The notes under the pieces are model-generated. The model was not told where the DNA came from, made no database searches, and worked only from the letters and a program-made list of their open reading frames with translations. 64,000 nucleotides of DNA from Adineta ricciae (lineage: Eukaryota; Rotifera; Eurotatoria; Adinetida; Adinetidae). Every line of letters starts with the position of its first letter. Position 1 is the first letter of the stretch. The translations under genes were made by a program, and so were the position numbers. Of the stretch, positions 15,096 through 60,572 are shown piece after piece. The stretch is from assembly GCA_905250025.1 (NCBI GenBank), contig CAJNOJ010000363.1:27933-91932 (forward strand). The letters are read 5' to 3'.

Positions 15096-15099
15096 TTCG

Positions 15100-16452: not shown

Positions 16453-16656
16453 TTTAGAGCTTTTTAAGCTCTATCATCCACGATATCGAAGAAAGGGGGC
16501 GTTGCTTCTATTGAATCACTATTTGATCCGCAAAAGCGATGTTTCACTCAACTATTAAGTAGACTATAACATTTGCATTGACTGCAATCAGGACAAAGAT
16601 TATTTTACCTAACTATTCTGGTATGAAAATGAAGCTTGAACAATGGCCTATCCAGA

Positions 16657-16967: not shown

Positions 16968-17250
16968 ATGAGCGACAAAGAACCTTTACTACAGACATCA
17001 TTGCAATCAGCCGTCAGTAGTGACGATGGAAATCATGGTAATCAAGACGGTAAACAAACGTTATCGGGCAGGTATGATTCAATGAGCGCGATGTGATATT
17101 CGTCGTCATAGTTATTTGACTTATTGTAGTGTATCCAATTGGCTTCGAAGTCTTTATGCTCGAGAAGATGTGCGAAAACATGACCAACTAGTTGATAATA
17201 CTGAAGCAGATGATGTTGACGAGAATTCTTTAATGGGAATTATCCAACTA
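16968..17250 (+). CDS. possible first two exons of ABCB-type transporter
   Basis: ATG at 16968 opens [20 protein letters not shown]. The exon ends at 17071 (GCAG|GTATG); the next exon, 17130-17250, reads [14 protein letters not shown] and ends NSLMGIIQL before GTAAGT. Total 75 codons, ending in phase 0, which matches the next recognised exon at 23812. An acidic, Ser-rich cytosolic leader just before the first membrane helix is normal for full-size ABCB proteins. The first two to three helices should follow but are not found before 23812, so linkage to the transporter is an inference from phase, direction and position. Confidence 0.5.
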
Positions 17251-20200
17251 GTAAGTTTCTTCAAAGTGGAGGACACTTACGCGTAGCCTTCCGTCATATT
17301 CATAGGTCTTGCGCTAGAACCTATAGACATTTTTCTAAAACTTCAACAAAGAGTTAAAATCAGATTAACTGTTTCCTCCAGTCTTTACAAAAGCACGTTG
17401 ATTAGAATAAAAACCAAACTTTTTTTTAACAGGAATGAATTGTTCAAACTAATAGAAATACAACGTTTGCGAGAATATCTTTTGAGCTTTCACTTCTATC
17501 CGTCACAATACTTCAAAGAAAATGCGGAGAAATTTTATTTTTATGAGAAAAACCTTGAAAACAAGTATAATTTTTAAACATTATTAATCTGTAAAAATAA
17601 CGTTTTCACCGAGCCCATTTTGCTTTTGGTCCAATTAAACAAACTCCAATTCTGCTTTAACTCAATTGATGCCATACAGAACGCAGGAATGATATTTGTC
17701 GCTCTTTCGCCTTCTTAGAAGACGAAAATCACACAATGTCCAACTAAGTTACAAGATATTGCTCCTTTTAAATCAGCAAGTTCTTTTTATCCCTTATGTT
17801 TTAATTACCAGGATAGGTTCAAACACCAGCTGATTGAACGCAAGAAAATTTCAGGATTAAAATAGTTGACATATAACAGAATATATCGTAAAAAGAGGGA
17901 GCATCATGTTTTGATCTGAAATTTTGTCCACAGAAAAATCTGCTAATCGGCTCAATATTCGCAAAATTTCAACTCTATAGAATTCTTTTCTAAGAATGTT
18001 AAGCCGCTTAAAAACTGCCCATATTTAGGTATGTACCAAGTTGAGTTCCATTCAAATCCAATTCTTATATTTGATCGGAGCTCAGTGGGGCTTAATTTGG
18101 GTTTGAAATAGATTCGAGCACATTTCGGTTTGAGTTTGATCAGATTTGATTGTCGAATCCAATCAAGTCTACATTGTCTTTAAATAATAGGAGATCGCCA
18201 ACACAACTCTGGAAAAACTAAATGAAATTCTATTCAAGATTTAATCGTATTCAAGTCTTTTCATGAAGAAATTCAGAGAGCTCTATGAACACGTTATATC
18301 CTCATTCATTCTAGTTTGTTATCAGTTCGTATTGAAATGAAATTCAAGAAAGCTTGAATTTAAACATAATCGATATTGCGAGCGATTCCAGTTAAATATA
18401 ATCAACTTCAAATCCAAATCTTGCCGAGCCCAAACTCAGCTCTAATCAAATCCGGTGAAATCTAGCTATATAATTAGATATAAATTTTACTGAAGTTGAA
18501 TTTGATGCATACATCCCCATATTCCACTATTTTCTGGCTCTTTAGACTAACATCTTGGAAAGAAAACGTTTTTTTAGACTTGAATGCTTGAGAAAATCGC
18601 ATGCATTATCAGACTCCACCACAAACAATGTTTTAAATCGCAATATGATCACTTCATTTTTTTACTGTATATCCTAATGCATAATCCTGTTGCAAAGTCT
18701 TAGCACAAAATATTTGTTCTTTTTCTAGCCCCTTAGAAGCAATCTGTGAATTGATGTGCTTTCTAAACATAAGTTTGGAGTAATTTTGTAAACTGAGATC
18801 GAATTATTGGAGACGAATCTTTGATAAGGAATGAAAACAATTTTTTTACAGGATACCGTACGAACTACAGCTTTGTGTTTTGATTAAAATCGCTTAAATC
18901 GAACTGTTAATACAACACTTTTGCCGAATGAAGTTTGTTCGATAAGATACGTGATTTATTTTGCTTTCAATCATTTCTTATATTTCATACAAAAATTCGC
19001 TAAAATCTCTTTATACAGAATACCCAATTATGTAAATAGTGACATCTCAAAAGAATCTTTTCTCGTTTTGACTGTTTTGAGCTTTCTTTTCGTAGATTCC
19101 ATGATGTTGTAGAGCATTAAAATCTGCTCAAGACAGAGACTTCAAACAATACCTGAGTATTGTTGAAATGAATTATAAATCAGCAGAGAAGATTTATCAT
19201 GTTATCTGTATGTCACTTTTTTATCCGTTCAAACGTGTTCTCTCACAACTAACTAACTATCAATCAAATGAAAACTTCAAAGGTATATTCAAACAGAGCA
19301 TCAAAGGACGGGGCGTATAAGACCGTAAATCGGCCCATTTCCAAATCAGCTTGATAAATACCAAAAACGATGCAGAATGAGACTGAGAATCTTTCTACAC
19401 CAAACTCAAATCAATCTGGAACCATATGAAAGGTTTCCGATGGCCAATACTATCCGGTAATTGCACTCATTTCTTCCCCTATTATGCTAGTGTCTTTTCA
19501 GACATATCATAACAAAAATTCTTTCGTATCATCTGCCCAATAGTTTCATTAGAAAGAGCAGAAAATTCTGCACAAAATCAAATATGAACCATCACGAAAA
19601 AGTACATATAGGGCGAAGTTATGATGACTGAATATTCAGTCATCATAACTTCGCCCTATATGTACTTTTTCGTGATGGTTCATATTTGATTTTGTGCAGA
19701 ATTTTCTGCTCTTTCTAATGAAACTATTGGGCAGATGANNNNNNNNNNNNNNNNNNNNNNNNNNNNNNNNNNNNNNNNNNNNNNNNNNNNNNNAGATGCG
19801 CCAAGTCACGACTCAAAAGTGAATGATCACCGGGGAATGTTTCCTTGTGAGAACTTTTCCAACTATGTCGATTAACTAGGGTCAACCAGCGCTACAAGAT
19901 CATAGGACACGGAGGAGAAAAGGATTCCTCTCCGTTCGGGCATGAGGCGCAAAGAGTCAAAGGGTGCACCGCAGCTCACAGCAACTGTAGAGAGACTTGT
20001 TTTTCTGCGCTTCCCTTCTAAAGTCCAATTGTTCCTCGAAGATTTGCAGATTTATTTTCAATACCTTAACCTACGGCCCTCAGATTGGTATAGACACTGT
20101 CGGTTCGCTTTCACTTTCGACCTTACCCATAGAAGGCTATAATCACGTGGCCAAGCCTATCTGATAAATTTGCGTTAACACGTACTGTCATGTACTGACT

Positions 20201-23200
20201 CTACTTTATATCCCAAAACCTAGAATCGGTTAACTTGTACTAGCATGTTTTGATCTACAGTGTGGTGTATAATTATAAGACCACAACAAAAGACGTAGAA
20301 AAAAGAAGAACGAAAGTAACAATCAATATTTGGTTTCTGCTCCATTTAACTTAATCATCTCAAATAATCTATCTGGCATCGAATGAACTAAATTCCAAAG
20401 CTGATCAGCACTTATTTCTTCCCATGATTTTAATACAGCAGTTTTTAACTACTCTTTGGTTCGAAATTGTTTGCATCCTGCAAAAACCTTTCTTGCTAGT
20501 ATTCCCCCACATATTTTCGATAGGGCTTAAGTCAGTAGATAATGGTGGCCAGGGTAAAAATTTGGTTTTTTAGACTTGACCCAAGCGATATTGACCTTCG
20601 CCCGATGAACAGCAGCATTATCTCGCTGAAAAAAATCCAATCAGATTCACCAATATTGGGACCAATGTTGACTAGATGATTCTTTAGCACATCGTGATAT
20701 CCCTTTGAATTCATTCGCCCGTTAATAAAGCATATTGAGCTTTTACCACCCCAACCAAAAGATGCCCAAATCATAACACTCCCATCACCTTGAGTCCGAA
20801 ATGAAAAAATTTCTTCCTCTTTATGCAGATCATGCCAGTAGTAAGGAAAGCCATCAGGACCATCAAGATTAAATTTCTTCTCGTCCGACCACACAACTTT
20901 ACGCCATTCTTCATTCCAGAACATATGATCTTTAGCTCATTGTAATCGTAATTCTTTGTGTGACTTTGTTAAAAGTGGAGAACGCTTCTTTTTCTTTTTT
21001 CTTCAAGATTTTTTACTTTTTGATAACCCGATTTATGGTCCATCTTGACAGTTTCAAGTTTAAATCGTGAATAATATCGGCACAAGATATTGATTTGTTA
21101 CTAGCAGTTCTTAAAATATGTCGTTTAGTGCGTTCTTCAACCTTTCTTCTACGACCAGTTCGTTTTATTAATCCATACTTAAGTGGATCTTTCAAAAAAT
21201 TTGTTGCCACGGTTTTGGATTGATTGATTTCTCGATACGGATAGTTTTCCTTCTGCAAGTCTAGAATACGTCTTTTCTCGTCTTCAGTCAGTTGTATTGC
21301 TTTAGGCATTTCTCTATTTGTATCCAGGTGCCAATTTAGTATGCTTGTTTACGAAAATGTCGCTGAGAAAAGAAGTATTATAATAAATATACCACGCGGT
21401 CTTATATTTATGCATAAAAAAAACAGAGAAAGTTCTATATATAAAAAGGAAAGCCAAAGGATATGTGCTCGAAAATTTTATATATATATTCTTGTCATTC
21501 ACCTGTACTAATTGACTAAGTATCATATTCATTTGATTTATCTTATTGGTAAAACAAGTGACCTCATAATTATGCACCACACTGTAACTTTGTTGGTAAA
21601 GCATTTAAAATCGATTGCTGCTTAGCTAGATTCAGTAAGTTCATATCCTAGATGTTTGCACTACGCTGCCTCAGAGAACACCACATTAGTATATCATTCG
21701 GATCTTTCGTTGCATCCATATCATATCACGTCGAGACGCTGAGAAGAACTAGAGTATTTCAAATGAAAAACTAAAGCATCCCATTTCTCCATCTTGCTCG
21801 CTCTCATCTGCGAATGCGATTGATGCTGAACTGCACAGATATCCTCATTTTACTATCTTGCTCGTTCTTTCATGCAGATGCTGCTGATGATGAGCGCTCA
21901 GACAACCTCAAGACGCTTCAAATTTTCCTTGTACGCCCAGATTTTGAGTCTATCGACCTTTTCTACAGAATAAATTCAAGCAACAGTTCGCAAAAGCTTA
22001 TGTGGAAATCCAAATCCGCATTCAAGTTGCCTAAGACCTTAAACTGTAGGATAAACTTTCTTGTTAGCATAAAGCTTGCTTGTGAACATTTTAGTGTATC
22101 TCCAGTCGATCACACAGAGATATGTATTCGATACAGATGATGTTCGTGCTTCGAGTCTGCTTTTTTCGCGCCGAAGATGTTAACTGCAGACAACTGCCAT
22201 CTGGGTCTTCCTACATATCAGTAACCAATAACTGATTCTGTATTTTCCAGACCCAAAGTAGCTCCAATACATGATTAGAAAAGCTCATCAGCGTAATCCC
22301 TTTGGGGCTGAAATGTGGAACTCATGTGCTCGTGTTTTCAGAATGAAACTATGAATAAGAATAGAACATTTATAAATTAAACTTATTTTTAGAACCCGTG
22401 CACTCAAGCTCGCGATGTTTGTACTAGTCACACAGGATGTAGTCAGTTGATTCGATTAAAGAAGTCAATCTACGGTTGATTGTTGAGTTTAATAAGGAAA
22501 TGCTAGCCGAAAAAACGTTTAAAGTTTTTTATAAGGTGAGATTTTCCTGAATACAATGCGCGTTGAGTCTTTTCCTCATGAATTGAATAATAAAGAATAA
22601 AATTCACGCAGTAGAGCGCACATAAATGAAGTTGAATTTGAAAAGGAAAGATTCTCGGTCTGATAACAAATAATACAATTTTGAACATGTTGATAACAAT
22701 TCTTCATGTGCTGTATCCTCAATCCTCTCTACATTCAAAGTACTCGTGACATTCCCTAGAATCTCTTAGCGGCTATAGCCCTTAGCACTTACAGCTGGGA
22801 CACCTGTACATGATCTTAGGGTGAGGGAAGATCATAGAATTTCTCGACTTAAAACTTACACTCACTTATTTTTCTTGGAAAAACAATGTGAGTTCCACAA
22901 AAGTCAGGAGATGAGAAGTGAGGTCAGTGCGAGCTGAAGTGTGTCAGGTTTTTCAGTGGAAAGTTGAGCCTGTACTTGAGAAGAAAGGTTCTATCTGGAT
23001 AAGAAATAGGAGTACAAATTTTACTGGTATTCGCGCAACCCTCGCAAAACCTATTGTTTTGGGCATTCAAAAATGTCCACTTTGTAGAGGTTCAGATGCA
23101 ATAAAAAGTAGTCCATCGAACCCTAACGTGTCTACTACGGGGGAATACCCATTATAGAATGTCTACTGTGAGAGATTTTACTGTAGCATTAAATGCCTGA

Positions 23201-26200
23201 TTATTTCTAAACAAGCACATAAAAGATTTCTATTAAATGGTCCCTTTGCTTAGTCGAATGAATAAATAATATTCTCAAGGCCGAAAATAGCTTCTTTTAA
23301 AGCTGTGAGATTTCTTTAAGTTTCGATGTATTTCCATAGGATTTTAATTAGTTCTAGTGATTCAGAAATGTACTATCACCAGAAATCTTCTTCATTTTAC
23401 ATGAGAATTCTTATTTATGGGAACGAATTATGGTGCGGTTGAAACTATGATGTTTTTAAAGATTTAGAAGGGCTTCAATAGTTCAAAAAAAGATTCTAAA
23501 GAGCTCTGATGGATGCCGATATCCAGAATCATCGATTTTCTCGCTCAAATTTTGAGAGTCCTACATTATTTAGGCGGATTCTAGCCATTCTATATGATTG
23601 ACTTGATTATACCGTATTCTAATGTACGCTCAGTCACATTGATGTGGCTCTGTTGACTGTAAAGCCATATAATTAGCTATTTTGTCGTCTTGAATATTCG
23701 TATATATGATTTTATAGATGTGGTAGTAACCGGACTCGATGTCTCTTGAAAAAAGGATTCATTATAAGTGCTCAGATAGCGTTTTAATTATCATTAGATC
23801 TTATTGTTTAGAACATGACATATTTGGATACTAATTCAATCAGTGAACTAATTTCGAAACTATTTAAGTAAGTACATTTCATCTTTAGTACAAAAGAGCG
23901 TGTTAATAATTATCCAATTGCTTTATAGCAACATTTCAAAGATTGAATTGGGTATTAATATGGATTTTCTAATATATATTGCGATTGTAATCACCATGGT
24001 CGGCAGTGTAGTTGTTTCATTCGTTATTAACTGGAAGTTATCATTTATTCTCTCGTGCCTTTCACCTGTGGTTGCTATTGCTTCCGTGATCTTTGCCCGA
24101 GTAGGAATCTATCAATTTAAATTAGTTAATTTTAGTAGCTCAATTATTGCAGGTAATCAGTACTGAGACAGTTAATGAATTAGCAACATATACCAGTGCT
24201 GGAAAGATCGTTCAAGAAGTGTTCAGTTCATTGCGAACTGTCTATTCACTGAATGGTGCTCAATTTGAGCAGAAAAGGTAATTATATACGCAGGCAAGCA
24301 TGGCCTACATTTTTAAAGAACCATTTAGCGTAACTCCTTCAGACTTAAAAATATTGAAGGCGATGAGGGTGAGCATTCTTTTAACACATAAGATTGCATG
24401 AGCATAATGCGATGACATTTTAGCCGTACCTCGTTTGATCTTTCTCAAGGGCAGCATCAACTAGATAGTTCATTTTTTATTGAAATTTGTATCTACGTTA
24501 GCCCCATATCTTCTAAAAAGATCTGCTTTCTAAAGAGAATCGTTCAATAATAAACGCGAAAATGAATGACGTGATACGATGGCAAAAAAAGTACCATAGA
24601 CATAAGGGTCTTCTATTTTCTTCTTATTTTTTTTGCGAAGCTGTACCTCATATATGAAAACGGTCAGCATTAGATTTGTAGCCAACAGTTTAATGCATCT
24701 GATGGAGGACGAAATATTTCCTAAATCCTTCGAATTTTCAAGCGGCACCGTTTGCATTAAGGTAACGCGATCACACTTGATTTTCTTAAAAGAGTTTATT
24801 CTGACATTTTCTCCTAATTCCCTCGACTGTAGAGAGGGTCATATGAAATAAAATAGTTTGTCTGTCTATTTGTGCCAGGGTCAAAGGTCGAAAAAACATT
24901 TTCCCCCTCAAAATCATTCAGCACATTGAAAACTTCTATTGTACTGACGGTAGAACGAGTGCGGGTTAAGGGGGAGAGGGTCTAGAATGAAGCCATGAGT
25001 GGGTGTATGAGCGTGGGTGGGGGCCTTGGGTCAACACATTGGTGGATGAATGGGTGTGAGTGTGGGTCTTAGGCGAAACTATGGGCGGATGGATGAAAGT
25101 AAGTCGTTGATTGGTTCTTTTGGGGTTGGTGTCTGGACATAGGTGATTGGAATCGATGATCGGCGAATCTGTTCCCTGAGTTCAGGATTTTATGTAGGTT
25201 AGGTGTTCAGTTCTTGTCGATTTGTTCATAATGGAATATGAAGGTTATGCTGGGTTGGGATGGCTGGGACTAGTGTCAGAAGACAGTTGAAGTCGCTAGT
25301 ATGTTCCAACTTTTATGCGACTGCAACTGATCTTAGGAGTAATAAAAGAGCGACAAACAAGCGTATGTATCACTGTAGCTAAATTCACTAAAGGCGAAAA
25401 TACAGATATCAAAAGATACGTTTTCTAGAATCAGACGTGTCAAATGTAATCCTAATCCATTGAGTTAAACCTATTGAATATATGGGAATTTGAGAAAGAC
25501 AAAGAAATACAACTTCTGCGAGTAAGCGATGAGTATTGTTGGTGTTCGTAGTAAATTTGGATTAACAGTAAAAATATTCTTTTTTGATTGAGTGTTTGTT
25601 CCAGTTGAATTCATAAATTGGAGTTAGAGTTGCTTTTTCGCGGATTTGCCGATTTCTGGATGGAATAGCGTCTTGTATCGTGGTAGTGAAGTTGATTGGC
25701 TGAAGTATTTAGATGAGGGACAGGATGTCTGGAAAGTGACATTGACTTTGAGCCAACTAAGATTAATGTTTGATGATCTATATTTTTGACTCTTATATAT
25801 GCTTCGTGGCGCATTTGATTGGTTGTGTATGGTGGTGATGTCGTTCGATTGAGGTGGCTCTAGTGCTTATTGTATTGCGTCATCGTTTGTTTCTTCTTAT
25901 TGCATATTGCATTGTTAGTATAAAATTTAGGCTTTTATATGCCTCTCCAAAAAGAGTAGGAAAAATTGAGTATTTTATTTTACTTTCGAAAGTCACTAAA
26001 TATATCTGCGCCAAAACATTTGAATTGTTTTTTCGTGTAGAAAATTGTTAGATCAATTTGTCTCACTGTGGGGTCACGAAAAAAATACCTGTCCTCCACA
26101 GTCAAGGGTTAAGTGAGTCGGCACGGCGAGCGCCGCTTGTTTATATTTGATATTACAAGTGGCCAATGATGAACTTTCGATATTAACAACAATAGTATCT

Positions 26201-36284: not shown

Positions 36285-36333
36285 TTCGATAAGAATTCAT
36301 TTAACTATTCTTCATTTTCGGTTTTTGTAGTAT

Positions 36334-36339
36334 AATAAA
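36334..36339 (+). terminator. poly(A) signal of the ABC gene
   Basis: AATAAA 50 bp after the TGA at 36282-36284, the usual spacing for 3' end formation. Confidence 0.6.
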
Positions 36340-40076: not shown

Positions 40077-41429
40077 TACTTACATCGATACCCCCTACCA
40101 CATACGAAGTAATCAGCAAAATCTGAGACATGATTGTGTCACGACCGTCTAAGTTTATCAGAAACTCACTCTTAAAATACAGTTTCAATTAGTATCGCAT
40201 CGTTATAGTATATAGAATAAACTGCTATACCTTATGAATTTCTGATAAGATCCGTTTATTGTTAAGAAAACATTAGTATCGGGTATTATTTTGATGAGAA
40301 GTATGAAGTATCTAGTTATTTTTGTTCAATCTGTTTTACCGCATATCATGGATCTTTGTAGAAATGTGTTGGACCTTAGACATGCTTACTTCTCTCTTTA
40401 TCTGTACATTATGTTAATCTCGTTACGACTAATGAATTACACGAGTGATTACTTGCGCGATACATTATCATGGTAACGAATTATCCGTCCACCATATAAG
40501 TGCGTGTTGTTATATGTAAAAGACGCGATTTATGGTAGGAAGAATAAATAAAGACATGGTTCCATCGGATATACATTTTTTCCATCAAAAATCGTTGCAA
40601 TTAGCAAAATGCCTCGTCTTGTAAGAATAAATATTTAAAAGTATAAGAACGTATTGATCAACCTATGTAGAACCAATAAGTGTCTCTGCCGTTGATCTAC
40701 ACTACGGCTCCTGAAAGGACAATTTGAGGGTAATGAGAGTTTTCATGCCATATTGTCACACCAGAATTTGGCTAAAATTCGAAGATGAAATTGTTTGAAC
40801 GAGTGGTTCCTGAGTTATTGGAAAACTATTGATATTTCTCTATGACTTCTTATGTACTCCATCCGATACACTTGTTGCAGTACACCTAATTTTCAGATAA
40901 AATCCGAAGTTTCCGTATTTATTTCAACATGTCGACACATTTGGAAACGTTGGACATTTACGGAACTTCTTTGATGGGTTTGGTAGAAAATATTACTTTT
41001 TAGTGTGCTATGTCGAAAATTTGAGCGCAATCTGATTTTTCTATCGAAATTTATCCTGTGAACAAACAGGCGGACGGACAGACACACTGACCGAGTCTGG
41101 TAGCGTACTCACTTTTTCAGTACACAAAAAGTTCCTTAGCGCAAAATTCTACTGTTCTGTAAACAGAATTTTCATGATTGAAGAGTTATTTCGGTGTAAG
41201 ATCGAGCAAAGCGCTCTCAACGAGTCCAATTTATATGTATTAATAAGATTTTTAATATCTTTTTCTTTTTCAACTCTCTTTATGTTAAATTAAAATAAGT
41301 CTTAGAAGTATGTCTTTAAATGAAAAAACATTTTTGATAAGATCGCACTGAAAAATGATAAACATCGAGGAAAACACTGAAAAACAGTGAATAATATATA
41401 TTAACTGATGATGAGTTAATTAGAAAGCA
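40077..41429. other. intergenic between Tigger and the NRPS 3' end
   Basis: AT-rich, with no convincing gene. The open frame 40291-40476 (+) is short and hydrophobic without family marks. No clear AATAAA follows the NRPS stop on the minus strand. Confidence 0.45.
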
Positions 41430-44400: not shown

Positions 44401-46917
44401 ATTTCTCAAATAGTTGAACTGTACTTTTGTCGCCTAGAAAACATTAGTGGATAGTTTCTGACTATATATGCAAACATCTTACCGCCGATATCAAGAGTTC
44501 GTAATGTTTCCAATTTTGGATGATCATTTTTCAGGAGAAAATCGCACATATTGTTGAGATACGCTGGAACACTTTGCATGTATGTAATTTGCTTCTCCTT
44601 CAAAATTTTTACAACGTATTCTACATCCATGTTTCCTTCAGGGTGTAGAAATACAAGATTCGCACCGAGGATTAATGTTCCTAATACTTCTTGCACATGA
44701 ACATCGTATGAACAGCTTGCCATCTGTATTACTGTGTCTTGAAATGTATATAAACCAATATGAAGTAGGGATCGAATACATCCAATAAAATTACGATGCT
44801 GAATTTCAACCTTAATGAAAAGATAATGTTTAAAACCATGTTACATACGACAAAAAATTTACCGCTTTTGGTATTCCGGTTGAACCACTAGTAAAAATAA
44901 CATAGGCACGATTGCTTAGCGTCACGGTTACATTTGATAATTGCTCAAAATCAATATTAGTTTCCATGTGACTGTCAACAAAGGTCGCATCAATATCTAT
45001 TGAAGTGACGTCATTATGAAATTTATTCGCAGTGAGAGAATGAACGAGGACGATATTCGCTTGAGTCTGTTGTAGAAGTGAGGCCAGACGGTGTTGTGGA
45101 TCTTTAGTTGATAGTGGGCAATAGACACAACCAACCATTTCAATCGCCATCATACCAATGACCTAAAAATGTGAATATTTATGGAAAAGATGAAAACACT
45201 GAATGGTAAAATAGACTTACCATCGATAAACTTCTATCGACACATTGACAAATTATATCATCTGATTTTACAGAGTATTTCTTCAAAAGATATAAAGATA
45301 ATATTTGAGCATAATGTAATAATTCAGCATATGTCAACGATTGTTCATCAAGTTCGACTGATAATTTTTGTGGATACTTTACTACTTGATATGAAAACTC
45401 TTGGTGTACGCAATTCATAGAAGAAAATAGTGTTTGTGTATGGTTTATAGATTGTGTGAGGATTTGCTCGTCTGGCAGTTGTAAGGACAATTCACAAACG
45501 GATATGTTCAATTTTTGATCATTAATAGATGCAAATAGTCGCTTCAACATGGAATGATACTGTTGTCCAATGATATGAACTGTTTCTACTTTGAATACAT
45601 CACGTGATGCGTTGATTGTACATGAAACTTGATTAGTATCGCGAGCATGTTCAATTTTGAAAACTAAATCAAACTTTCTCATCATTTCATTATCATACAT
45701 TTGCATGGTAAGGGGCATCAAAGAAAGTCGACTATTATTAATGATTGGTTCATTTTCGACCACATTCAATGTGTGTGATAGAAACTGGAATGCTGTGTTA
45801 AGAGTTGCGGGCTCCGAAACACTGGAATGCTGATTAAAAATACGTTGCAGAGGAAAATAAGAGAATTTCATACTATTTGTTAACATCTCTTTAACATATT
45901 CGATTAGTTGATGACAAGATCCATAAGGACAGAGTTTACATCGTAGAGGAATAATACTATCAAATGTCCCAATGATTGATTTTAATTCATTCCTATATCG
46001 GCCATCGATACTTTTTCCAATACATAGATCGTTTTCGCTGTTAGTTATTTTAAATAAAAAAGCATAATACATAGCAAGTACTAGTTGTTCTAGTGTAACA
46101 TTATATAACGATGCGTATGTGAGAAAATGATATGATAAATCTTGATCAAAATCAAAAGAAATGGATACTGTATGATTTGTTCGATCTTCATCCATAAGTC
46201 GATGCTGGTCATATGGTAATGATAAAGGCTGATCAAGTTTACAATCACAAAGAGCATCAAACCAAAAACTACTAGCGCCATTCATTGACATTTGCTGTTC
46301 GATGATGGCATCTAAAATGATGAGAAAGCTACATGTTGTGAAACGGAATTATTATAAATGTTTATAATTACAATCAAGATAACGTAAAGTATTATTATCA
46401 TTTGTTGGTAGTTGGCCTGTTGTATAAGCTTGATTAAGATCATCAAGAAACAAATTCATTGATTGAAGATCAAACACAGCATGGTGAAAATTGAAAATAA
46501 GAACATCATTGTGAGAAAGATATTCATTGGAAGACCTTTCTTTGTGATAAACAACGTGACAACGAAAGACAAGTCCACGTGTAAGATGAAAAAGTTGTGA
46601 ATTATATTTTTCTTCATGTATAGTATTATCTAGTTGTTCCTCTGTTTCATAAGTACTTTCGATGAACGCAAACAATCGATTGTGGTTCTCATGCAAATCT
46701 GTAACTCGTTGTATTAGTTGATCTTTTTCTGTGTCGAAGTTCAGTGATGTATGAAGTGACTGATGTCTCATAACACATACTTGAAGAGCATTTTCGAGTT
46801 GTTTAGTTGATATTGTACTAGACGTAGCTAAACGATAGACGAAGGGTATGTGATGAGTTGCAATTTCTGATTTTGTGTCTTCGAGCCAAATGCGTGCTTG
46901 TGCAGACGATGCGGGTG
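41430..46917 (-). CDS. NRPS: condensation-adenylation-thiolation plus Pls/PosA-like terminal membrane domain
   Basis: Exons (minus): 46917-46372, 46311-45221, 45162-44863, 44810-44483, 44433-41696, 41633-41430; 1734 codons plus stop in one phase-consistent frame. Condensation domain with FHHAVFD near residue 145. Adenylation domain about 450-950: YVIFTSGSTGIPKA, LYGPAETTIDCTYH, FYRTGDLA, GRKDYQVKLYGQRIEL, LNANGKVDRK. Thiolation site MGGTSLDAI near 1020, Ser being the phosphopantetheine attachment. From about 1090 several membrane helices alternate with hexapeptide (left-handed beta-helix) blocks such as GAKIGRHTHIY, GARIENDVKF and GAKIGCDVIL, ending WSGVPAQKVK. This matches the terminal domain of epsilon-poly-lysine-type synthetases. 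The first exon starts at an acceptor in phase 1, so an upstream exon is required; none is seen before 52.5 kb. Likely the 3' part of a larger gene of bacterial or fungal origin. Product unknown. Confidence 0.93.
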
Positions 46918-47192
46918 CTATAACAAAAAGAAGTAATACTAAAATACAACTAACAAAATTCCTTATGAAACGTTTTTAGATTTTTTGTTGACTATTGCTA
47001 CTTCCGAAGCGAGGAAAAGAAAATAGGGTTTGTCTATTGAAAAAAAATTTAGTCATTTCATTAATCATCGCGACCTAATATTCTTTGAATCTTTTGTGCT
47101 TACCACGATGATAAGCTCTTAGCCCACATTAAATATAATAATACGCGGAAAAATGAAGTAATGTTTGTCCAATTATGCGAGATAAGTACATA
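46918..47192. other. upstream intron-like DNA of the terminal NRPS module
   Basis: Begins, on the minus strand, with a pyrimidine-rich acceptor (TTTTTGTTATAG) for the exon at 46917. No coding exon is recognised. Confidence 0.5.
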
Positions 47193-49024
47193 GGGTATTC
47201 AATAAGCTCTCGTAGTTTTCTATATCTCTCTCGAATAATTGTAATTCCTGTCTTTTTTACACCATATATTCGAGTTAATTGTCGTGATATTACATAGAAA
47301 ATTTCATCAATCTAGCTGATTCTTTTGACATCCAACTGGGGTACGTATTGCATAAAAATGGCTCCTTGATTACTCACATTTGCCATAACGCACAGCTGAC
47401 TATTAGCTAGCATATCTTTTACTCGTTTTATCACCTACTATAGAGCACGACCAGCCATCGGTCACCCTACGCTATGAAAGATTTAAAACTATTAAACTAG
47501 CGAGAGGCCAACCTTTTTTGAAGCAACTCTGACGAGAAAACCTTTAGAATCTAGAGAACTACTGTCTCTTCCATCTATGATTTGCCAAAGGACAAAAATC
47601 TTTTCCCCCAAATTTCTGAGCATGAATATATTGAAAAATCGTAAAAATTTCGACGGTGACTGTGATACAGTGACGTCATTGGGATGTCTCCTTCTATAGA
47701 TATCATTGTTACCTTGTCTTTGTTCGAAATATTTTACAGGAATATTCCATGTGGTCATAGTCCTTCGGAAATATTCTGAGGATATTTCATTATTCTGACT
47801 CCATATATAATCACAGTTCTTTTTATATTGTTGTGTTTAGTTTTCGTTTATTTTCAAATAAACTCGTATACACCTCAAGACGTGACGATGACTTTTTGGC
47901 TTTTGCGAAAAAAATCAATAGGAATTACGGAGTCGATTCGAAAATACGGTTCAACCAGATCCTGATCTTTGAACACATCTGAGGTATGTTCCCGATGAAG
48001 TAGAAACCACAGCTGAATTCCAGCAAAAACGTAGGTATGGATCTCTCAAACTATCCACATAGAGCACGCAATTTTCGATAAAATTCCGAACGCTTGGCTG
48101 TGCTCTATACTAGATTTTAAGTCCAAGTTGAATATACTGTGTTAGCCATAACTTCATTGGATTGTATTCGGAGAAGATAGCAACACTGCTTATTATGTTG
48201 TTTAAAAACCATGAATTAGTCTTATCCACAAAAATACGGTTTTGTGAAAATACCTTTTGCATGGATGAACTTTCGTTCATTTAACTACTATAAATAGTTT
48301 TCCCCAGCTGCTTTACAAATTATCATGAAAGAAAAATTAGTCGGATTAAAATAAACTGTTAACACAGCCTTCTGTAGTTTGTACTATAGTCAGCAAAAAT
48401 CGTTTATACATATTTAGTTTCTCTGTCATTTCGCGACGATAATGATATTGAATTCAATATTGGAATATCAAAGCCCGATCCGATGTATGTGAATGCTATA
48501 ACGTTAAAGCTGTTTACGTTTTGATGCATTGTCACATAGCTATTATCTCTTTCCATCTCTTTCTTTCTCTCTTCGCATACTGGACTTTGTTCGTCCTTCA
48601 TTCTTCCATGTGTTCTCGTCGGTCTGGGTCAAATGTTTCTGAGTGATCTGAAACGTGGACGTACTTTTCGTACATTCATAAGCAGAAGTTCCTGATGACT
48701 TCTCCTTTGTTCTTGAGCCTTATAAAGACTCATCTCTTTCAAAATAAAGGCATTCGTCTTCGTCGTTTCGATTAGCCAATTTTTCACATTTTAACTTCAA
48801 TTCATCGAGATTTCATGACCGAAAAGGTCAGGAAAATCTCGTCAGTGGCCAAGGAGCCATTTTTATGCAATATGTACTCCAGTAGGATATCAAAAGAATC
48901 AGCTAGATTGATGAAATTTTCTATGTAATATCATGACAACTAACTCGAATATATGGTGTAAAAAATGGAGGAATTACAATTATTCGAGAGGAATATACAT
49001 AACTGCGCGAACTAACCGACACCC
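47193..49024. mobile_element. mariner-like element with about 180-bp inverted repeats
   Basis: 47193-47385 and 48840-49024 are imperfect reverse complements. The outer ends GGGTATTCAA and CCGACACCC are bordered by TA-rich sequence, like Tc1/mariner termini. The minus strand of the left arm and plus strand of the right arm read a similar peptide (GAIFMQYV and DEIFYVIS). The interior shows no transposase; the open frame 47492-47758 (-) is unrecognised. It sits in the gap between the two NRPS parts. Confidence 0.7.
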
Positions 49025-50877
49025 ATATATAAAAGGAAAATAACAGCACATAATTTCTCTTGAATATTCTATACATTTGAGACTACTGCTTTTCCTAAAT
49101 ATAAAGATCTTGATGTTAGTTACTTCCCTTCCGAGATACGAGAGTCTGCCACATTCACCGAAAAGAACAGTTTCAAATGTGTAGAATGTTATAGAGACAA
49201 TATCATATCTAATTTGCTTGCAGAACAGTGATTAAGAGGTATTCATCTCACGCTGCTTCATGGAATTTTCCAAGCGGAGTCCTCTTTTATACTGGACGAA
49301 CCACCTCCACAGGGTTATGAAAAACGCAATTAACGTTTGATGATAATTGGATGATTGAAGAATTTAGGTCAGGTAATTGACAGCGATTTTATGCTACAGG
49401 TGAATAAGTACGGAATTGATGATGAAAATTATGTTATACATAAGATGTAAAAAAATTGCAGATGAATGAACTCTTTTCAAGGGTTTATTAACCTTACAAA
49501 GTATAAGAAGGGTATCCTACACGCTATATTTTCATATACCATAAAAAGGTTCATTAGCCGCCTATACCCTTGAAAACCACTTTTCTTTTCTACCGTTCTT
49601 CTAAAGAGCACACACTCGAAAATCTTCTAAGGCTAAATCGATGCTCATCTATCCAAAATGGTTTATGAAAGTGCAACGTAAAAGAACTCTCTGCCAAGTT
49701 TATCAAAAAACACGGTTCATGAGAGCGTACATCACGTTCATAAATCTGAAAAAGGTTCGTAATTCGGCGATTCTTTCACAGCGTACACTATGTGAAAACC
49801 CCTTCAGTAAAACTAGATTTTCTCTAGAATACCTCAAGATTTGGTTACACAACTTCTACAGAAAGTTATCGAACATTCAGCTAAATAATACGAACAATAA
49901 ATAAACGTATTACTGAACTATTTGATACGCAATTCTATCCCTATTGTACGCCTAATTCAGCATATCGAAGAGACTTGTACAGGTTAAAGTCGAAAAAGCA
50001 ACGTTTTCAAAAAGTGTTGCCAATACATATAGGCTACTACCGCTTTATTTTTGAAGCAGGAACTCTTACCTTGTTTATGAATAAATCAATCTGCGATCAC
50101 AAATCAGACAGTTAATCTACGCCGTGTAACATCTAGTTACATTCTTTAATATGATCGTTCAAAATATTTAACATATGGGTATGTAAGATGCGTATGACAG
50201 TATATACACACAAAGTCTCATAACTTCGAAGCTTCTTATGAAAATGTAGTGCAATGCACAACATTATGTTGCTACCATCAATGATGGTCTCAAGGAAGAA
50301 AGAGTTGCATGAGTTAAAATTTATTGACACTATCATATCTAACTCTGGACTACATATCGGCAAGATTTAATTGGAATGTGAGGTATAAGTTGAGCACGGT
50401 GCTTCGTAGTTTTCATCCATTGACTCATACATCAAAATCTTCAAAACACACATAAGCTACATGACTAAAATCTAACTTAACACTGTAGCATCGCACATAA
50501 AACCGTCTAGGATGCAGTTAACTCAGAGCAGAAAACCAAATTGATTTTCAGTTTCATAAATAACCGCCATCCTAATCAGCTCCCAGAAATAACAGGCTAA
50601 ACATTAACTCGATTCCACAGCCTACAGTATTCAAATGGCTAAGAAGGAAAAGAATAATTTCTAGGACAAACATCAATGGAAATCAACAGTAACTATACTA
50701 CTTGCTGTATCCAGTTCCAGTATTTCTTATGGTTTCCCCATTGATTTCGTATAATTTCCAGCGATTCTTCACTTGAAAAATTTACCTCTTATCAATCATA
50801 AAAAGTCACGAGAAATCACAGAAATCGTTTTGTCCCTCTTGCAAATGACCCAATAAGTAAGCAATACGAATCGTTAC
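49025..50877. other. no gene; holds a diverged MITE family B copy
   Basis: About 49470-49800 is a diverged copy of the element at 6881-7253 (AAGAAGGGTAT, GCTCATCTATCC and GTTCATAAA in the same order). The remainder is AT-rich without coding evidence. Confidence 0.55.
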
Positions 50878-51162
50878 CTTCATTTATCACATCGTCTTGT
50901 CGACCAAACATAACATTATCGATTTCTCTTGCTTCTTCTGGTAGAATTAGATTAAATAATGATATAGACATGTCAAACATATTTCGTGTTTCCATTCCTT
51001 CTTGCGATGAAAACAATTGTTCGAAAAGATATTGAAATCGTTCACTTGTTTGTTTGATTGCATTTTCATCGAATAAATCAGCTGAGCAAATAAATACACA
51101 AGATAATTGTTTATCATCCGGTGTTGTACTATCGTACACGAAGTTCAATGAAAAATCGAATT
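50878..51162 (-). pseudogene. duplicate NRPS condensation-domain fragment
   Basis: 285 bp nearly identical to 52520-52804, encoding the end of a condensation domain and its linker (LSCVFICSADLFDEN through INEG), with a few substitutions. It starts at the N at 51163 and ends at the same splice position, but the donor is GTAACG rather than GTAAGT and the downstream intron differs. It therefore represents another allele or paralogue of the module, joined here, or a real partial duplication. Confidence 0.85.
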
Positions 51163-51839
51163 NATCCTTTACATTCTACCCTTAATCTGTTTCAACGTGA
51201 ACACAGAATCATGAGTTCTTGTTCATTATAACCTCTATACTCTGGCAACTTTTATCTATCTATGTATCTATATATACATAGATATATATAGATATGTACG
51301 CATATATATATATATATATATATATAAAGAAGAAAGTTTGTCTGTCTGTCTCTCTGTCTGTTTGTTGTTTGTTCGCTATGCAGTCAGTCTCTGTGATAGC
51401 TATCGGCCTGGAACTTTCCACAATGCTTCTATGAACGCAGCGGAAGATCAGCATCTACTTTTCCCCGAAACAAATGAACCAGGCGTTTGCTACAGGCAAT
51501 CTATGAAACTGGCCAATAGGATTGCAGTATTTTAACAGTGGATGAAATTGATAGCAAAGACGGCCGAAGACCCTCTGAGCGCTCATAGACAACAATATAC
51601 ATGTTGTCTATGTCTATGCTAGTTCTGTGCATGCTATAGGCTACATGCGAAACTCACCAATAGTACTACCGAGTTACAAAAGATTAAGATATACCTTAAG
51701 GGTGAATGCAAAGGATGTAAGATACGAAGTGACGTGTGAGTGTGAATGAGGTTCACAAGTGAACGAGTGGAATGTAGAATTAATATCAGAGAAAGAGGCA
51801 GTTCTAATCATTTGTCAGGTAGAAACCAGCTGCGGTAAC
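51163..51839. repeat. simple repeats: (TA)n and TGTC-rich tract
   Basis: After the N at 51163 there is TA/TATC-rich microsatellite at about 51250-51330, followed by (GTCT)n-like sequence to about 51370. The rest to 51839 is non-coding. Confidence 0.7.
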
Positions 51840-52222
51840 TAGGGTCCTGCATCGGGATTCTTCGGCGGCGATTGTTTTCAGAGCGGAGACTATAGCTTAG
51901 TTGTTGGATTCGTTAGAAAATGCACGATCGATAGAGCATTAGATTCTGTATCGGGTGACCATATTTTAAGATTTCACTGAAAATCTATCGCAGAATAATC
52001 GCCAACAGGATTCCGAAACCCGGTAAAACCTTCAAGTCGGGATTTTTCTATCCCGCTAGTAATTCTCTCATGACACACTTTCAGTGAGATCCAAAAGCAG
52101 AATGATCTGGCACAGAATTCAATTCTCTATTCATCGTACATCTTAAAAACTCGAAAAAATTACCTGTAGTCTCTGCTCTTGAAATACTGGATCCCGAAAA
52201 AATCCCGATGCAGGACTCTAGC
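51840..52222. mobile_element. MITE with about 26-bp inverted repeats
   Basis: AGGGTCCTGCATCGGGATTC near 51840 is mirrored near 52215 (AATCCCGATGCAGGACTCT). Non-coding interior of about 380 bp. GTAACT occurs outside both ends but not at identical spacing, so the target duplication is uncertain. Confidence 0.6.
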
Positions 52223-52519
52223 GTAACTCTTTTGCATTAAGAGATATAACTGAAACTTCCGTTTTACACAATGCACGGCGAGAAAAAGAAGAACTACAAG
52301 CATAGAAATTTCGATTATGCTGATTTTATATCTGCTGCAGCTTTTCAACACGTGATATGTTCGACATAGATATCTGTCATTTGCCACCGGGTACCCTCGC
52401 TAGTATTGAATAATCTTCAAAGAATCATCATTAATTATCTCAACTACGTACATTTTACCATTTTCTACATAGTAAATGTTTTTGCGTCACTCGTTAGTAC
52501 AGCATATACAAGTACTTAC

Positions 52520-55500
52520 CTTCATTTATCATATCGTCTTGTCGACCAAACATATCATTATCGATTTCTCTTGCTTCTTCTGGTAGAATAAGATTAAATA
52601 ATGATATAGACATGTCAAACATATTTCGTGTTTCCATTCCTTCTTGCGATGAAAACAATTGTTCGAAAAGATATTGAAATCGTTCACTTGTTTGTTTGAT
52701 TGTATTTTCATCGAATAAATCAGCTGAGCAAATAAATACACAAGATAATTGTTTATCATCCGGCGCTGTACTATCGTACGCGAAGTGCAATGAAAAATCG
52801 AATTTAGCCACTCGATACGATTGTTCCAATGATATTAGTTCTAATGGTGTTTCATCCAAACAAAATGAACTATGACCAGATGAAATAGTAATGAAATCAA
52901 ACATTATTTCAAGGAATGAAACACTTGATTGATTAAGATTTAAATCAGCTAGTAGATGTTGTAGTGGGTAATAAGAATGTGGAAGAATTGATAGACACTG
53001 ATGTTGAACTTGCCGAACAAGTTCACTGAATGAACAATTTTGATCAAATTGAAGACGATAGGGTAACGTTGCAACAAACATACCAATCATATCTTGTAAC
53101 TCAGATCTGTAGCGATTTGCATTAACCGAAGCAATACATAGATCAGTTCGGTAGTGAGATAACCGAAAAAGAAACACATAGAATGTTGCTAGAGCAAGTT
53201 GAAACAGTGTAAGATGTTGTTGAGATGCATAGTTGATAAATGATGTGGATAGTTGTTGGTTGAATGAAATTGAAGCAATTGTTGCCGAGCCCGATCGTTG
53301 ATTGAGAACAGTTGTTGACGACGATAGCCGCTTTCGATCTGCACATAATAAGAAAGGATTCTGATGGTGAAAATTGAATCCATGCAGGTGTGAAGACCAG
53401 AACTGTTGAGATGTCGTCATGTCGATGAGACACTCATGAACTGAATAATCGATGTATTGAAGTGTTGAGTCTTGACGTGAGGATAAAGGAGAAAAATTAT
53501 TTGTTGAATAAGCAAGAGAAAGATCACGAATAAAGATTGCTGTTGATGTTCCATCAAAGAATGCGTGATGAATAGTGAATAAGATCAGATCATTTGTATT
53601 CAACAGATCATCATTGTTCTCAGCGCTGTGATTATTGCTTTGACGGGCCGGCGATGATAATGATCGATGAGAACGGAGAATATGACAATTAATGATTTTG
53701 CCTGTTGATAAATCAAATAAACTTGATTGATCCATAATGCTTTTCACAACTTCATATATTGAACAACTTTTATATTGAAGAAGATCAACGATTGAAAATG
53801 AAAATGACTTTTTCTCAGAGCAATCTTGTATAAGAATTCCATTTGCGTCCAAATAAAGGGATGTTTGCAGAACACAATGTTTTGTAATGATATTTTGTAA
53901 GGCCTGATGCAACCGTGATAATGACACACGATGACTGGAAGACGAAATACGATATAACAATGGAATAGCATACATGTTATGATTATTCGTTTGCGACGTA
54001 AAACGAATTTGTTCATCTAAGAAGATGCGCTCTTGTGCATAGGATGCTTTTGCTAAAAAGAAGAACGAAAAGAAAGAAAGACCGAGAATAGTTCATACAT
54101 TCTGTCATGTGTGTGTGTCTCACCCTGAGTTAAATGGAGTGAAAGCCAAGCTGAGTCATGCGTTGTTTGTGTCATGTCCAGACTTTGATGAATGATTTGG
54201 CTATGGTGATAAATAGTTGGATATTGAAAAAGATCAATGATAGAAAACGAATTTGAACGTAATTGAAAGTGAGCTTTATATCGATGAAAGAGTTGCATCA
54301 CGAGTAGAGAATGAGCACCGAGCGTGAAAAGATTTGTATTGATCGAAATGCGTTTTTGTTGAAATATATTGCAGCAAATATTATGAATAATGGTTTCTAT
54401 TTCATTACTTGGTAGTTTGAATTCAACTTCGCCAGGAACAGATGATAAGGAAAACTGAGGTATAGGAAGACTCTTTCGATCAATTTTTCCGTTTGCATTC
54501 AATGGTAATTTATCAAGAACTATAAAATATGATGGAATCATGTGTGATGGAAGATGTGCTTGACAGTGATCACGGAGTCTTGCTTCATTAACAGATAAAC
54601 TTTGAATGTATGCAATAAGATGATCATCAGTCCATTTCGTGACAATACAAGCTGAAATCGATGAAATCAATAAAAGACAGTGTTCTATTTCTCCCAACTC
54701 AATACGTTGGCCATGCAGTTTGACTTGATGGTCCTTTCTTCCTCGATAATAAATAAAACCGTTGTGATCAAGATGCGCAAGGTCTCCTGTTCGATAGAAT
54801 AATTCATTATCAATGAAGATTAGTGCTTTCGAAGTTAAATCATCACGATGAAGATATCCAAGAAAAACACCAGTGCCGCCAACAATTAATTCTCCTTCTT
54901 CATTAATGGCAGCTGGTTGATGGAATTCGTCTAAGATCAAACATCGATATCCGGGAAGAGGTAGGCCAATCGGAACACTTTTGTAGTCTTCGATAAGATT
55001 AACAGCATGCCATGTACAAGCAATAGTTGTTTCGGCTGGACCGTAAAGATTCAGTACAACAAGTTGAGACATATCAAATTTTCTCAAAATATCAACTAAG
55101 TTGGTAGAGAACGGTTCACCTAGAGGAAATAACAATATGATGTACTTTGAAGAGCAACTTTTTCTGAATGCGTTAGTTACCAATGCTACATAATGTTCGG
55201 ATATAAAAGTAATCTTCCATGGTATCCGTCTGCTGCACATAAGCGAAAAAGCTATAGAGCAAACTGGGTACTGTATGCATATATGAGATTTGTTTTGCAT
55301 GTAAAACAACGTTCAGATAATGAAAATCCAACGTTCCATGCGGATGAAGCATCACTAAAGTTGCCCCAACGATCAGTAAGCCTAGTATTTCTTGCACATG
55401 AATGTCAAACGAACATCGCGCCATTTGGATGGCAGTGTCATTATTATTGAACGAATTGATCTGAGTTAATGATTTTATACACTCGATAAAATTCTTTTGA

Positions 55501-57672
55501 GAAACTTTGGCCTAGAAAGAAGATACTAGAGATTTATATTTACATAGAGACAATGACAACGAACTGCTTTTGGTATTCCTGTTGATCCACTTGTAAAGAT
55601 AACATAAGCTATATCGTCTGGCTTGACACCTATTTCCGATAATGAATCAAAATTCTCGTGATTTTCAACGTGAGCATTGCCTAGTAAGAGTGTCTCAATA
55701 TCTAATAAAGCAGTGTTCTTATCAAAGTTGTCCTTCGTCAACCAATGAACAAGAACAATGCGACTTGCTGTTTGTTTTGCAAGGGATTGTAGGCGACGAG
55801 GAGGATCTCGAGGCGACAAGGGGCAGTAAGCAACACCCACCATCTCTAGTGCTATTAAACCGATTACCTGCAATTGACGAAATAGTTCCAGTTTACGCAT
55901 ACATTTCTTTAATTATTTATTTGATATGCTTACCATTGTGATACTTCGTTCGACACATTGACAAACAATATCACCTACAACAACTGATTTATGATTAGTC
56001 AGATGTAATGATGCGACTTGAGCAGAATGTAACAATTCAGTGTATGTCAACGACTGTTCATCTAGTTCAACTGCTATTTTTTGCGGATGCTTCATCACTT
56101 GGTTGGCAAATATCTGATGAATACAAAGCTGAGTGAGAGTAGAAGACGGCAAGATTTGTGTGTTTTCCAATGATTGAAGAATAAGCTGTTCATAAGGCAT
56201 CGCTAATGGTAACTCACAGACGGGTATGTCGAGCCGATGAGCATCATCTGATGAAAATAAATTACTCAGCATGAAGTGAAATCGTTGTGTTATCATTTGA
56301 ATCGTTTCATGAGTGAATAAGTCAAGCGATGCATTGATTGTGCATGACAATTTATTTGTCATTGGATTATGTATAAAACTGCCAATGAAATCCAATTCAT
56401 TTATTGTTTCATTTTCTTTTGTATGAGTTGATAAAGGCATGAGTGAAAGTCGGCTATCGCCGACTATGATCTCACTTCCGTGCTTATTTTTGACAGAACA
56501 ATTCAGAAATTCGAATGATGTATGAAGAAATGCAAAATGTGATATATGAGAATGTTGCTTGAGAATGTGCTGAAGTGGATAATATGAATACTTAATTGAA
56601 TCCATTGCCGTCTTATACACATGATGAGCGAGTTGAATGAATGACCAATGAGCATGAAGTTGACATCGAAGAGGAATAATATTGCCAAACAATCCAATGA
56701 TTGAGTTGAGTTCAGGTCGATATCGACCATGTGTATCAATGGCAATGCAGAGCTCATTTTGTCTATTGGTGATTTTCAAGAGAAAGAGGAAATAGAGCGA
56801 AAGAATGAGGTGTTCGAGTGGAATATTTTCCCCTGAAGCATAGGTGCAAATCTCATGCGCAAGATATGGATCAAAGTCGAAAGTGAAAGATATTGCATGA
56901 TCCGTTCGCTGCTGATTGGAAAGGCGATATCGATCATAAGGTAATGCCAGAGGTTGATCCAGTTGACAATTATGAAGCGAATCAAGCCAAAAGAATCTTG
57001 CGCCACTCATTGGCATTTGCTGCTCAATGACAGCATCTATACAAGGAGCAACGAGAGAAATAAATAAGAGAATAACAGAATGATACTTACAATCAAGATA
57101 ACGAAAAGTAGTTTCATGGTTTTCATCACGCAAATATGATTGACTTTCAGCATATGCTTGGTTGAGATCATGTAAAAAGATATCCAACGATTGCAAATCA
57201 AAGAAAGCTTTATGAAAATGGAAAATGAGAAGATCTTTGTCTGACAGGAGCTCGTCATTGTCAGCTGGAGTATGTTGATAACAAATAAGGTGGCATCGAA
57301 AAACAAGACCTCGAGCTAAATCGAATAATTGCGGATTATTGTTTGCGCTGACGATGACCTCTAGCAGTTGTTGATCGTTTTCATAAGAACTTACGATGAA
57401 TGGGAAGTGCATTTGGTTGTTTCGATCATCGAGCGCAGTGATATGTTGCATAAGTTGCTGTTTTTCAGAGTGGAAGAAGAGTGCTGTATGAAGTGATGGA
57501 TGCTTTTGAATCATGAGTTGAAGTGCAAGAGAAAGTTTTTGTCTCGAAAGAGTGTGCTGTTGGTGCAAACGATAAACAAATGACATGTTATAGATAGGTA
57601 CTTGTGAATTGCCGATAGCTGATTTTGTGCACTCTGTAAGCCATAGACGTGTTTGAGTGTAGGATGCGGGTC
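52520..57672 (-). CDS. NRPS: condensation-adenylation-thiolation-condensation (partial at both ends)
   Basis: Exons (minus): 57672-57091, 57036-55934, 55867-55565, 55511-55181, 55119-54124, 54052-52520; about 1615 codons. First condensation domain begins PASYTQTRLWL and carries FHFHKAFFDLQS, where the second His of HHxxxDG is Lys. Adenylation: YVIFTSGSTGIPKA, MARCSFDIHVQEILG, LYGPAETTIACTWH, FYRTGDLA, GRKDHQVKLHGQRIELGEIE, LNANGKIDRKSL. Thiolation: LFTLGAHSLLVMQL, Ser for the phosphopantetheine arm. Second condensation domain begins KASYAQERIFLDEQ, with canonical IHHAFFDGTS. It ends at a good GTAAGT donor at 52519, but no adenylation-thiolation unit follows. It starts at an acceptor, so upstream exons are also missing. 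Probably part of the same assembly line as 41.4-46.9 kb. The donor GTTCGT at 55564 is weak. Confidence 0.93.
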
Positions 57673-60154: not shown

Positions 60155-60449
60155 GCTTTCGAAGTTAAATCATCACGATGAAGATATCCAAGAAAAACAC
60201 CAGTGCCGCCAACAATTAATTCTCCTTCTTCATTAATGGCAGCTGGTTGATGGAATTCGTCTAAGATCAAACATCGATATCCGGGAAGAGGTAGGCCAAT
60301 CGGAACACTTTTGTAGTCTTCGATAAGATTAACAGCATGCCATGTACAAGCAATAGTTGTTTCGGCTGGACCGTACGAATTCCAAATGGTACAGAGTGAG
60401 CTATGTAGTCTCTTGAAGATATTCAATAGCTTTGTGGGAAAAGGTTCAC
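60155..60449 (-). pseudogene. NRPS adenylation-domain fragment
   Basis: After a TTGTAG acceptor the minus strand encodes GEPFPTKLLNIFKRLHSSLC, then SYGPAETTIACTWHAVNL and onward to LHRDDLTSK, where it is cut by the N at 60154. From ACTWH on it is identical in protein to the adenylation domain at 54.8-55.0 kb; before YGPAETT it is clearly different. It represents another NRPS module or a recombinant copy. Splice site and phase match the corresponding exon at 55119. Confidence 0.85.
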
Positions 60450-60572
60450 CTACAATGGATGATAGTATGGTAGTGTTACGTATTTTAGCACTTTCAGGTA
60501 AATTCATTCTAACGAGAATTGTAGAAAAGAATGTTACGGACTTCAAATTTGGCCGTCACAAAGGAGATATTA

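Follow-up and report, generated by a model that had tools for sequence, protein, structure and literature searches.

A nonribosomal peptide synthetase gene with a Pls/PosA-like terminal domain beside an ABCB gene in the rotifer Adineta ricciae: a possible make-and-export locus

Do a nonribosomal peptide synthetase (NRPS) gene and the P-glycoprotein-type (ABCB) transporter gene that lies tail to tail with it in an animal genome form a unit that makes and exports a peptide, or are they neighbors by inheritance? The question is raised by a 64,000-nt stretch of the bdelloid rotifer Adineta ricciae (assembly GCA_905250025.1, contig CAJNOJ010000363.1, positions 27,933 to 91,932, forward strand), here called the window, in whose coordinates all positions are given. 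That bdelloids carry NRPS genes, that these are of bacterial origin and associated with transposons, and that ABCB1 genes occur as their neighbors is already known. The NRPS genes of A. vaga are described as intron-containing, bacterial in origin, present in about 50 copies and moved by transposons (PMC3846280), PKS-NRPS hybrid clusters of A. ricciae (PKS, polyketide synthase) as flanked by co-induced ABCB1 and MFS genes, and NRP/PKS clusters as over-represented subtelomerically (PMC11258130). The bacterial ancestry of the type of NRPS found in the window is taken from this literature (PMC3846280, PMC10531068). In the main texts of open-licence papers, we found none on an NRPS with a terminal domain like that of the polycation synthetases Pls and PosA beside an ABCB gene.

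The gene pair and its linkage in Adineta vaga

The original prediction had minus-strand NRPS modules ending at 41430, a plus-strand full ABCB exporter ending at 36284, ~5.1 kb between the two and a 2.3-kb Tigger element in the gap, all in an animal-like genome. Most of this was borne out: the NRPS stop lies at 41430, where the final residues agree with the C-terminal end of the A. vaga relative; the ABCB gene stops at 36284, its final residues resembling those of A. vaga I4U23_010787; 5,145 bp separate the ends of the two genes; and the gap holds a 2,283-bp Tigger/pogo element, whose transposase reading frame is interrupted. The host could be narrowed to a bdelloid, as all organisms named among the best 120 matches in each of three protein searches were bdelloid. 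The exporter was not shown to be full, since transmembrane helices TM1-TM2 were not found and the TM11 region is broken at a scaffold join. The alternative raised at the time, that the exporter is an ordinary metazoan ABCB gene, proved correct as to class, its closest solved structures being ABCB4 and ABCB1.

The NRPS-ABCB pairing looks real. The NRPS C-terminal open reading frame (ORF; 41649-44443, minus strand) shares 79% identity with A. vaga I4U23_010781 over 98% of its length, and the nearest relative of the ABC gene is A. vaga I4U23_010787 (71% over 84%). These two A. vaga genes are six locus tags apart and both lie on a contig of 16,274,841, the common contig being assumed from equal size and the closeness from the tag numbers; a random gene would fall within 6 tags of a given gene in about 12 of 27,000 cases (largest tag seen, 027303). 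Phylogenies of both families, built by a quick method from 38 of the 121 rows available for ABC and 50 of 121 for NRPS, paired the window genes with these same linked genes: the ABC gene with I4U23_010787 (SH-aLRT 98), the A. vaga copy I4U23_021849 falling outside (100), and the NRPS with I4U23_010781 (SH-aLRT 100). Thus, the check on linkage in related genomes that had been suggested was borne out in one species. Other A. vaga NRPS tags, 010866-010870, are on a contig of 20,354,754, which, if tags are positional, places the pair at most 79 tags from a contig end. A location of the A. vaga pair close to the end of its contig is therefore probable and would agree with the subtelomeric tendency reported in PMC11258130. 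Within A. ricciae itself, the best NRPS match (protein P0014) and the best ABC match (P0124) share a contig of 542,432; P0014 groups with A. vaga I4U23_025187, so that P0014 and P0124 may be another linked pair, in this case with an NRPS paralogue, which we give as a lead only.

Domain order of the two genes

The NRPS gene carries the families PF00668, PF00501 and PF00550 (Condensation, AMP-binding and PP-binding), corresponding to condensation (C), adenylation (A) and peptidyl carrier protein (PCP) domains. In order of transcription these are C'1, A1, PCP1, C2, a 5.5-kb repeat-bearing interval, C'3, A3, PCP3 and the terminal domain, where C' denotes the second of two types of C domain. Exons, which extend to about 57712, were modeled with a spliced-model script trained on long ORFs and by tblastn with bdelloid relatives, and some of their borders are approximate. 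The model introns are 32-121 bp long with GT-AG ends; published intron medians are 55 and 58 bp in two Adineta species, and the main bdelloid class spans 30-100 bp (PMC5916493). The coding sequence has a GC content of 0.362, similar to that of the window (0.32-0.40 in 2-kb steps). Active sites of NRPSs are defined by the core motifs of A domains, the serine of PCP domains and the HHxxxDG motif of C domains; as judged by eye, the A and PCP core motifs are retained in both modules. No PKS family was among the Pfam matches of 20 scanned ORFs (the window's longer ones), and those NCBIfam matches that are named NRPS/PKS fall within A-PCP or C regions.

No A or PCP match was found in the interval between C2 and C'3 (46990-52495), and no match to the retrieved bdelloid proteins at E <= 0.01 fell within 46990-50830 or 51164-52500. 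The three C domains of the window served as queries against 357 proteins from the bdelloid searches, 120 of them ABC proteins. Results showed 334 condensation-domain matches, a set made redundant by many A. steineri copies, with 174 nearest C'1/C'3 and 160 nearest C2 (motif uncovered in 42). Among the 104 pairs less than 120 residues apart, a C2-type domain was followed by a C'-type domain in 99 (C'-C' in 4, C'-C2 in 1), whereas 87 of the 89 pairs at least 120 residues apart had the order C'-type to C2-type, the other two being C'-C'. The motif ended in DG in at least 87 of 154 C2-type matches and in none of the 25 commonest C'-type strings, which usually had F or Y. Judged from these matches, the repeating unit of the family appears to be A-PCP-C-C', so that the C2-C'3 order of the window would be normal for the family. 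The idea that an A-PCP module has been lost from the C2-C'3 interval was rejected, since C-C' lacked an intervening A in those 99 of 104 close pairs and the interval gave no match in the ranges stated above. C2 as an epimerization domain is not supported, none of 35 solved-structure matches being so titled (titles only). A narrow literature search for "tandem condensation domains" with NRPS returned the PosA paper alone, where the phrase is used in another sense.

At the end of the gene, a predicted Pls/PosA-like terminal domain is found where a thioesterase would be expected. PosA and Pls share a layout of three helix pairs and three left-handed beta-helices (PMC10522769). An AlphaFold2 model of the C-terminal ORF (33 sequences; mean pLDDT 78.4, pTM 0.64) contained three long helix pairs (residues 338-362/365-386, 540-573/578-605 and 785-808/811-835), with a strand-rich block after the first and second pairs; as the last exon is not part of the modeled ORF, the third block is cut short. 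The NCBIfam model for Pls/PosA, TIGR02353, scored 110.8 bits, below its cut-off of 423.1 (173.9 bits for A. vaga I4U23_010781), and the hexapeptide repeat PF00132 scored 24.9 bits, below its cut-off of 27. What the window NRPS shares with Pls/PosA is thus an A-PCP that precedes, in place of a thioesterase, a terminal domain made up of three helix pairs and strand-rich blocks; as modeled, this domain probably works like that of Pls/PosA. In contrast to the single A-PCP of Pls/PosA, which has no C domain, the window NRPS has three C domains and more than one module. Furthermore, Glu221 (position 239), which binds the side-chain amine, is conserved across all polycation synthetases compared in PMC10522769, whereas Gln occupies position 239, as mapped by motif spacing, in both A1 (SFDIHVQE) and A3 (SYDVHVQE). 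With Gln in place of Glu239, and with its C domains, the window NRPS is not a canonical polycation synthetase, and with TIGR02353 below cut-off it is outside the Pls/PosA family as defined. A cationic homopolymer as the product is not supported, given the same Gln. Polycation synthetase homologues have been described in some Metazoa, and poly-ornithine as antifungal (PMC10522769).

Among the best 80 of 573 bacterial loci, no ORF of at least 150 aa matched the terminal-domain profile at E <= 1e-5, and two weak matches were obtained at E <= 1. The best segments of the bacterial loci fall within query residues 1-391 and therefore say little on the origin of the terminal domain. Similarly, the 50 rows listed in a fold search were all NRPS or adenylation-type structures, so that this search did not probe the terminal domain. 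In three A. steineri proteins (P0034, P0035 and P0044), the methyltransferase-type families PF13847 and PF08241 occur together with the NRPS terminal part.

Matches to bdelloid ABCB proteins form 20 blocks between 16968 and 36284; 19 of the 20 are stop-free, and the lone stop, at the start of one block, falls in what is taken to be an intron's end. The weak matches of exons 1-2 are in order and common to several bdelloid homologues. Walker A, signature and H-loop are retained in both nucleotide-binding domains (NBD1 and NBD2), and the gene has the two-half layout of the metazoan P-glycoproteins ABCB1 and ABCB4. It differs from these in that TM1-2 were not found in the scaffold and in its NBD2 signature, which starts with Met, whereas the usual ABC signature begins with Leu. 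The TM11 region is broken at a single N, N34654, which adjoins an inverted copy of an upstream ABC exon (34655-34837). The best 120 ABC matches were all bdelloid, with many paralogues.

Make-and-export unit or inherited neighbors

The explanation that we tentatively prefer, with doubt slightly outweighing belief, is that of a transposon-rich bdelloid locus in which a domesticated, multimodular NRPS (C'-A-PCP-C-C'-A-PCP-terminal domain) and an ABCB pump form a make-and-export unit. In such a unit, the A domains would load two or more amino acids onto the PCPs, the C domains would join them, and the peptide would leave via the Pls/PosA-like membrane domain, by release or oligomerization and with no thioesterase; synthesis would end at a membrane, and the ABCB pump would serve to expel the product or to protect the cell. 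The export step is proposed because of the proximity of the two genes and the published A. ricciae case, from which export of the NRPS product is a plausible candidate role for the ABCB. The published Adineta clusters, with their ABCB1, MFS and P450 flanks, resemble the window in having NRP/PKS genes with ABCB1-type neighbors and a subtelomeric tendency; they differ in being PKS-NRPS hybrids with measured pathogen induction (PMC11258130), whereas the window locus, known from sequence alone, has no PKS domain in the ORFs scanned, a Pls/PosA-like terminal domain and one ABCB gene. The window NRPS also resembles the A. vaga NRPS family in its introns and transposon-rich setting and differs from the A. 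vaga copy moved by Penelope, which is flanked by Penelope pseudo-long terminal repeats (PMC3846280). Recruitment of a native pump would be compatible with both the metazoan class of the ABCB and a make-and-export function. A more specific version, in which an animal combined an acquired NRPS and membrane-anchored assembly with a native P-glycoprotein recruited alongside, the pair being older than the split of two Adineta-like lineages and the product not of the polylysine type, is in our view rather unlikely. If the pair does cooperate, an animal would have equipped an acquired bacterial-type enzyme with its own pump, a component that need not arrive with a single gene transfer, and the locus would add a second synthetase type, beside the PKS-NRPS hybrids, for asking whether bdelloid antimicrobial synthesis is clustered.

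Several results weigh against a make-and-export unit. The linkage in A. vaga can be explained by plain inheritance between congeners, and a query with the N-terminal part of the NRPS, among candidates limited to about 880-2812 aa, gave, among the best 120, no A. vaga match that exceeded 54% identity and no match located on the 16,274,841 contig. In A. steineri, three contigs (1,322,951; 452,188; 169,084) were, by eye, common to the listed ABC and NRPS matches; with three shared among dozens listed, the two gene families show no evident tight association in general there. The A. ricciae ABC copy nearest to the window gene in the tree, P0188, is on a contig of 42,342 and not on the contig of 542,432 that holds the best A. 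ricciae NRPS match. The end branch of the window ABC gene is long (0.31 vs 0.12), to which its rough gene model may add, and no exons for TM1-TM2 were found between 17259 and 23812. Finally, the second His of the C'1 motif is replaced by Lys (HKAFFDL).

Inherited gene order explains the linkage nearly as well as make-and-export and is nearly as likely. By this explanation, which we regard as quite possible, both genes are real, inheritance of local gene order has kept them close together since the common ancestor with A. vaga, and the ABCB serves general detoxification. The ordinary metazoan class of the ABCB and its many bdelloid paralogues would be expected in that case, and homologous copies within A. 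vaga do share their gene order (PMC5916493). However, repeats abound in the region, its A. vaga counterpart is probably close to the end of a contig, subtelomeric regions enriched in NRP/PKS clusters are highly dynamic, and ABCB1 neighbors at other clusters are co-induced (PMC11258130), all of which fit passive inheritance less well.

That one or both genes are pseudogenes decaying amid transposons is improbable. Transposons and repeats do occur within and between the genes, and the Lys in the C'1 motif, the A fragment at 60.1-60.6 kb and the unfound TM1-2 of the ABC gene (a part that likewise precedes the start of the two nearest A. vaga models) would suit such decay. Nevertheless, the NRPS retains open frames of 931, 623, 532, 419 and 389 codons, its C-terminal ORF has the close A. 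vaga identity given above, nearly all ABC blocks are stop-free, and the A, PCP, Walker A, signature and H-loop motifs persist. The spliced NRPS model is by itself no evidence against decay, as stops were excluded from it by construction.

The window is a scaffold that includes eight single Ns and, at 19739-19793, a run of 55 Ns. Seven of the single Ns are one base away from where a self-match (80 bp or more, with 93% identity or more) terminates, whereas 20,000 random draws of eight positions placed a mean of 0.13, and a maximum of 3, within 10 bp of such an end. The single Ns are read as putative scaffold joins of contigs with overlapping or repeated ends. Such joins, seven of which coincide with ends of duplicated or inverted segments, can fake palindromes and module duplications, and order across them is scaffold evidence only. 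N32274, N32695 and N34654 are inside the ABC gene; N51163 is inside the NRPS, for whose continuity the scaffold and the same C-C' order in relatives speak. A false joining of the two genes at N37050 could be suspected from the duplicated segments at seven of the eight joins and from the inverted ABC exon copy beside N34654, but is very improbable with the nearest A. vaga pair six tags apart in an independent assembly.

Feature coordinates and neighboring elements

Table 1. Features of the two genes, the DNA between them and the single-N joins (window coordinates; TMD, transmembrane domain; HTH, helix-turn-helix).
Feature	Position	Strand	Content
ABCB exons 1-2, N-terminal part	16968-17259	+	MSDKEPLLQ...; weak single matches (E down to 0.001)
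ABCB exons, TMD1 middle	23812-24278	+	
ABCB exons, TMD1 end and most of NBD1	30333-31595	+	
ABCB exons, NBD1 end, linker, TMD2 first part	33288-34634	+	
ABCB exons, TMD2 end and NBD2	34868-36284	+	34868-35029 partly by eye; stop 36284
N37050, between ABCB and NRPS genes	37050		single-N join; the one without adjoining repeat
Tigger/pogo DNA transposon	37794-40076	-	terminal repeats, TA duplication, Tc5 HTH and DDE_1 (Pfam)
NRPS 3' exons	41430-41633 and 41696-44443	-	A3 second half, PCP3 (GGTSL), Pls/PosA-like terminal domain (predicted), stop 41430
A3 first half	exons ~44483-44810 and ~44860-45162	-	FTSGSTG, SYDVHVQE; borders approximate
C'3, second-type condensation domain	45221-46949; exons ~46372-46949 and ~45221-46311	-	HHAVFDL
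C2-C'3 interval	46990-52495	-	N51163, second copy of C2 3' end (50816-51175), inverted repeats
C2, first-type condensation domain	52520-54052	-	HHAFFDG
A1 (without its start) and PCP1	54124-55867	-	GAHSL (PCP1); about three exons; borders approximate
C'1, second-type condensation domain, and A1 start	55934-57712	-	HKAFFDL
A-domain fragment	60088-60555	-	holds N60154
Single Ns	8086, 15527, 32274, 32695, 34654, 37050, 51163, 60154		

Within the A-domain fragment, 221 nt (60155-60375) are identical to 54825-55045; the fragment is either a repeat collapse or another module. The inverted repeats of the NRPS interval (47187-47377/48841-49031; 191 nt, 85%, 1.46 kb apart) are possible transposon ends.

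A perfect palindrome of two 105-nt arms (19529-19738) directly adjoins the 55-N run. A telomeric array was rejected: TGTGGG occurred 16 times vs 12.05 expected, a count reached in 18 of 100 shuffles, and doubled TGTGGG with one mismatch allowed occurred once vs 0.09 expected. A Tc3-type element lies at 20533-21348 (PF21517 at 21014-21348), and a second mariner/Tc-like element was recognized by eye within 15076-16470, of which 15902-16470 had no family match; DNA neighboring this element recurs inverted at 4195-4489. The sole RNA-family match in the window at gathering scores was a tRNA-Ser (GGA) at 63759-63833.

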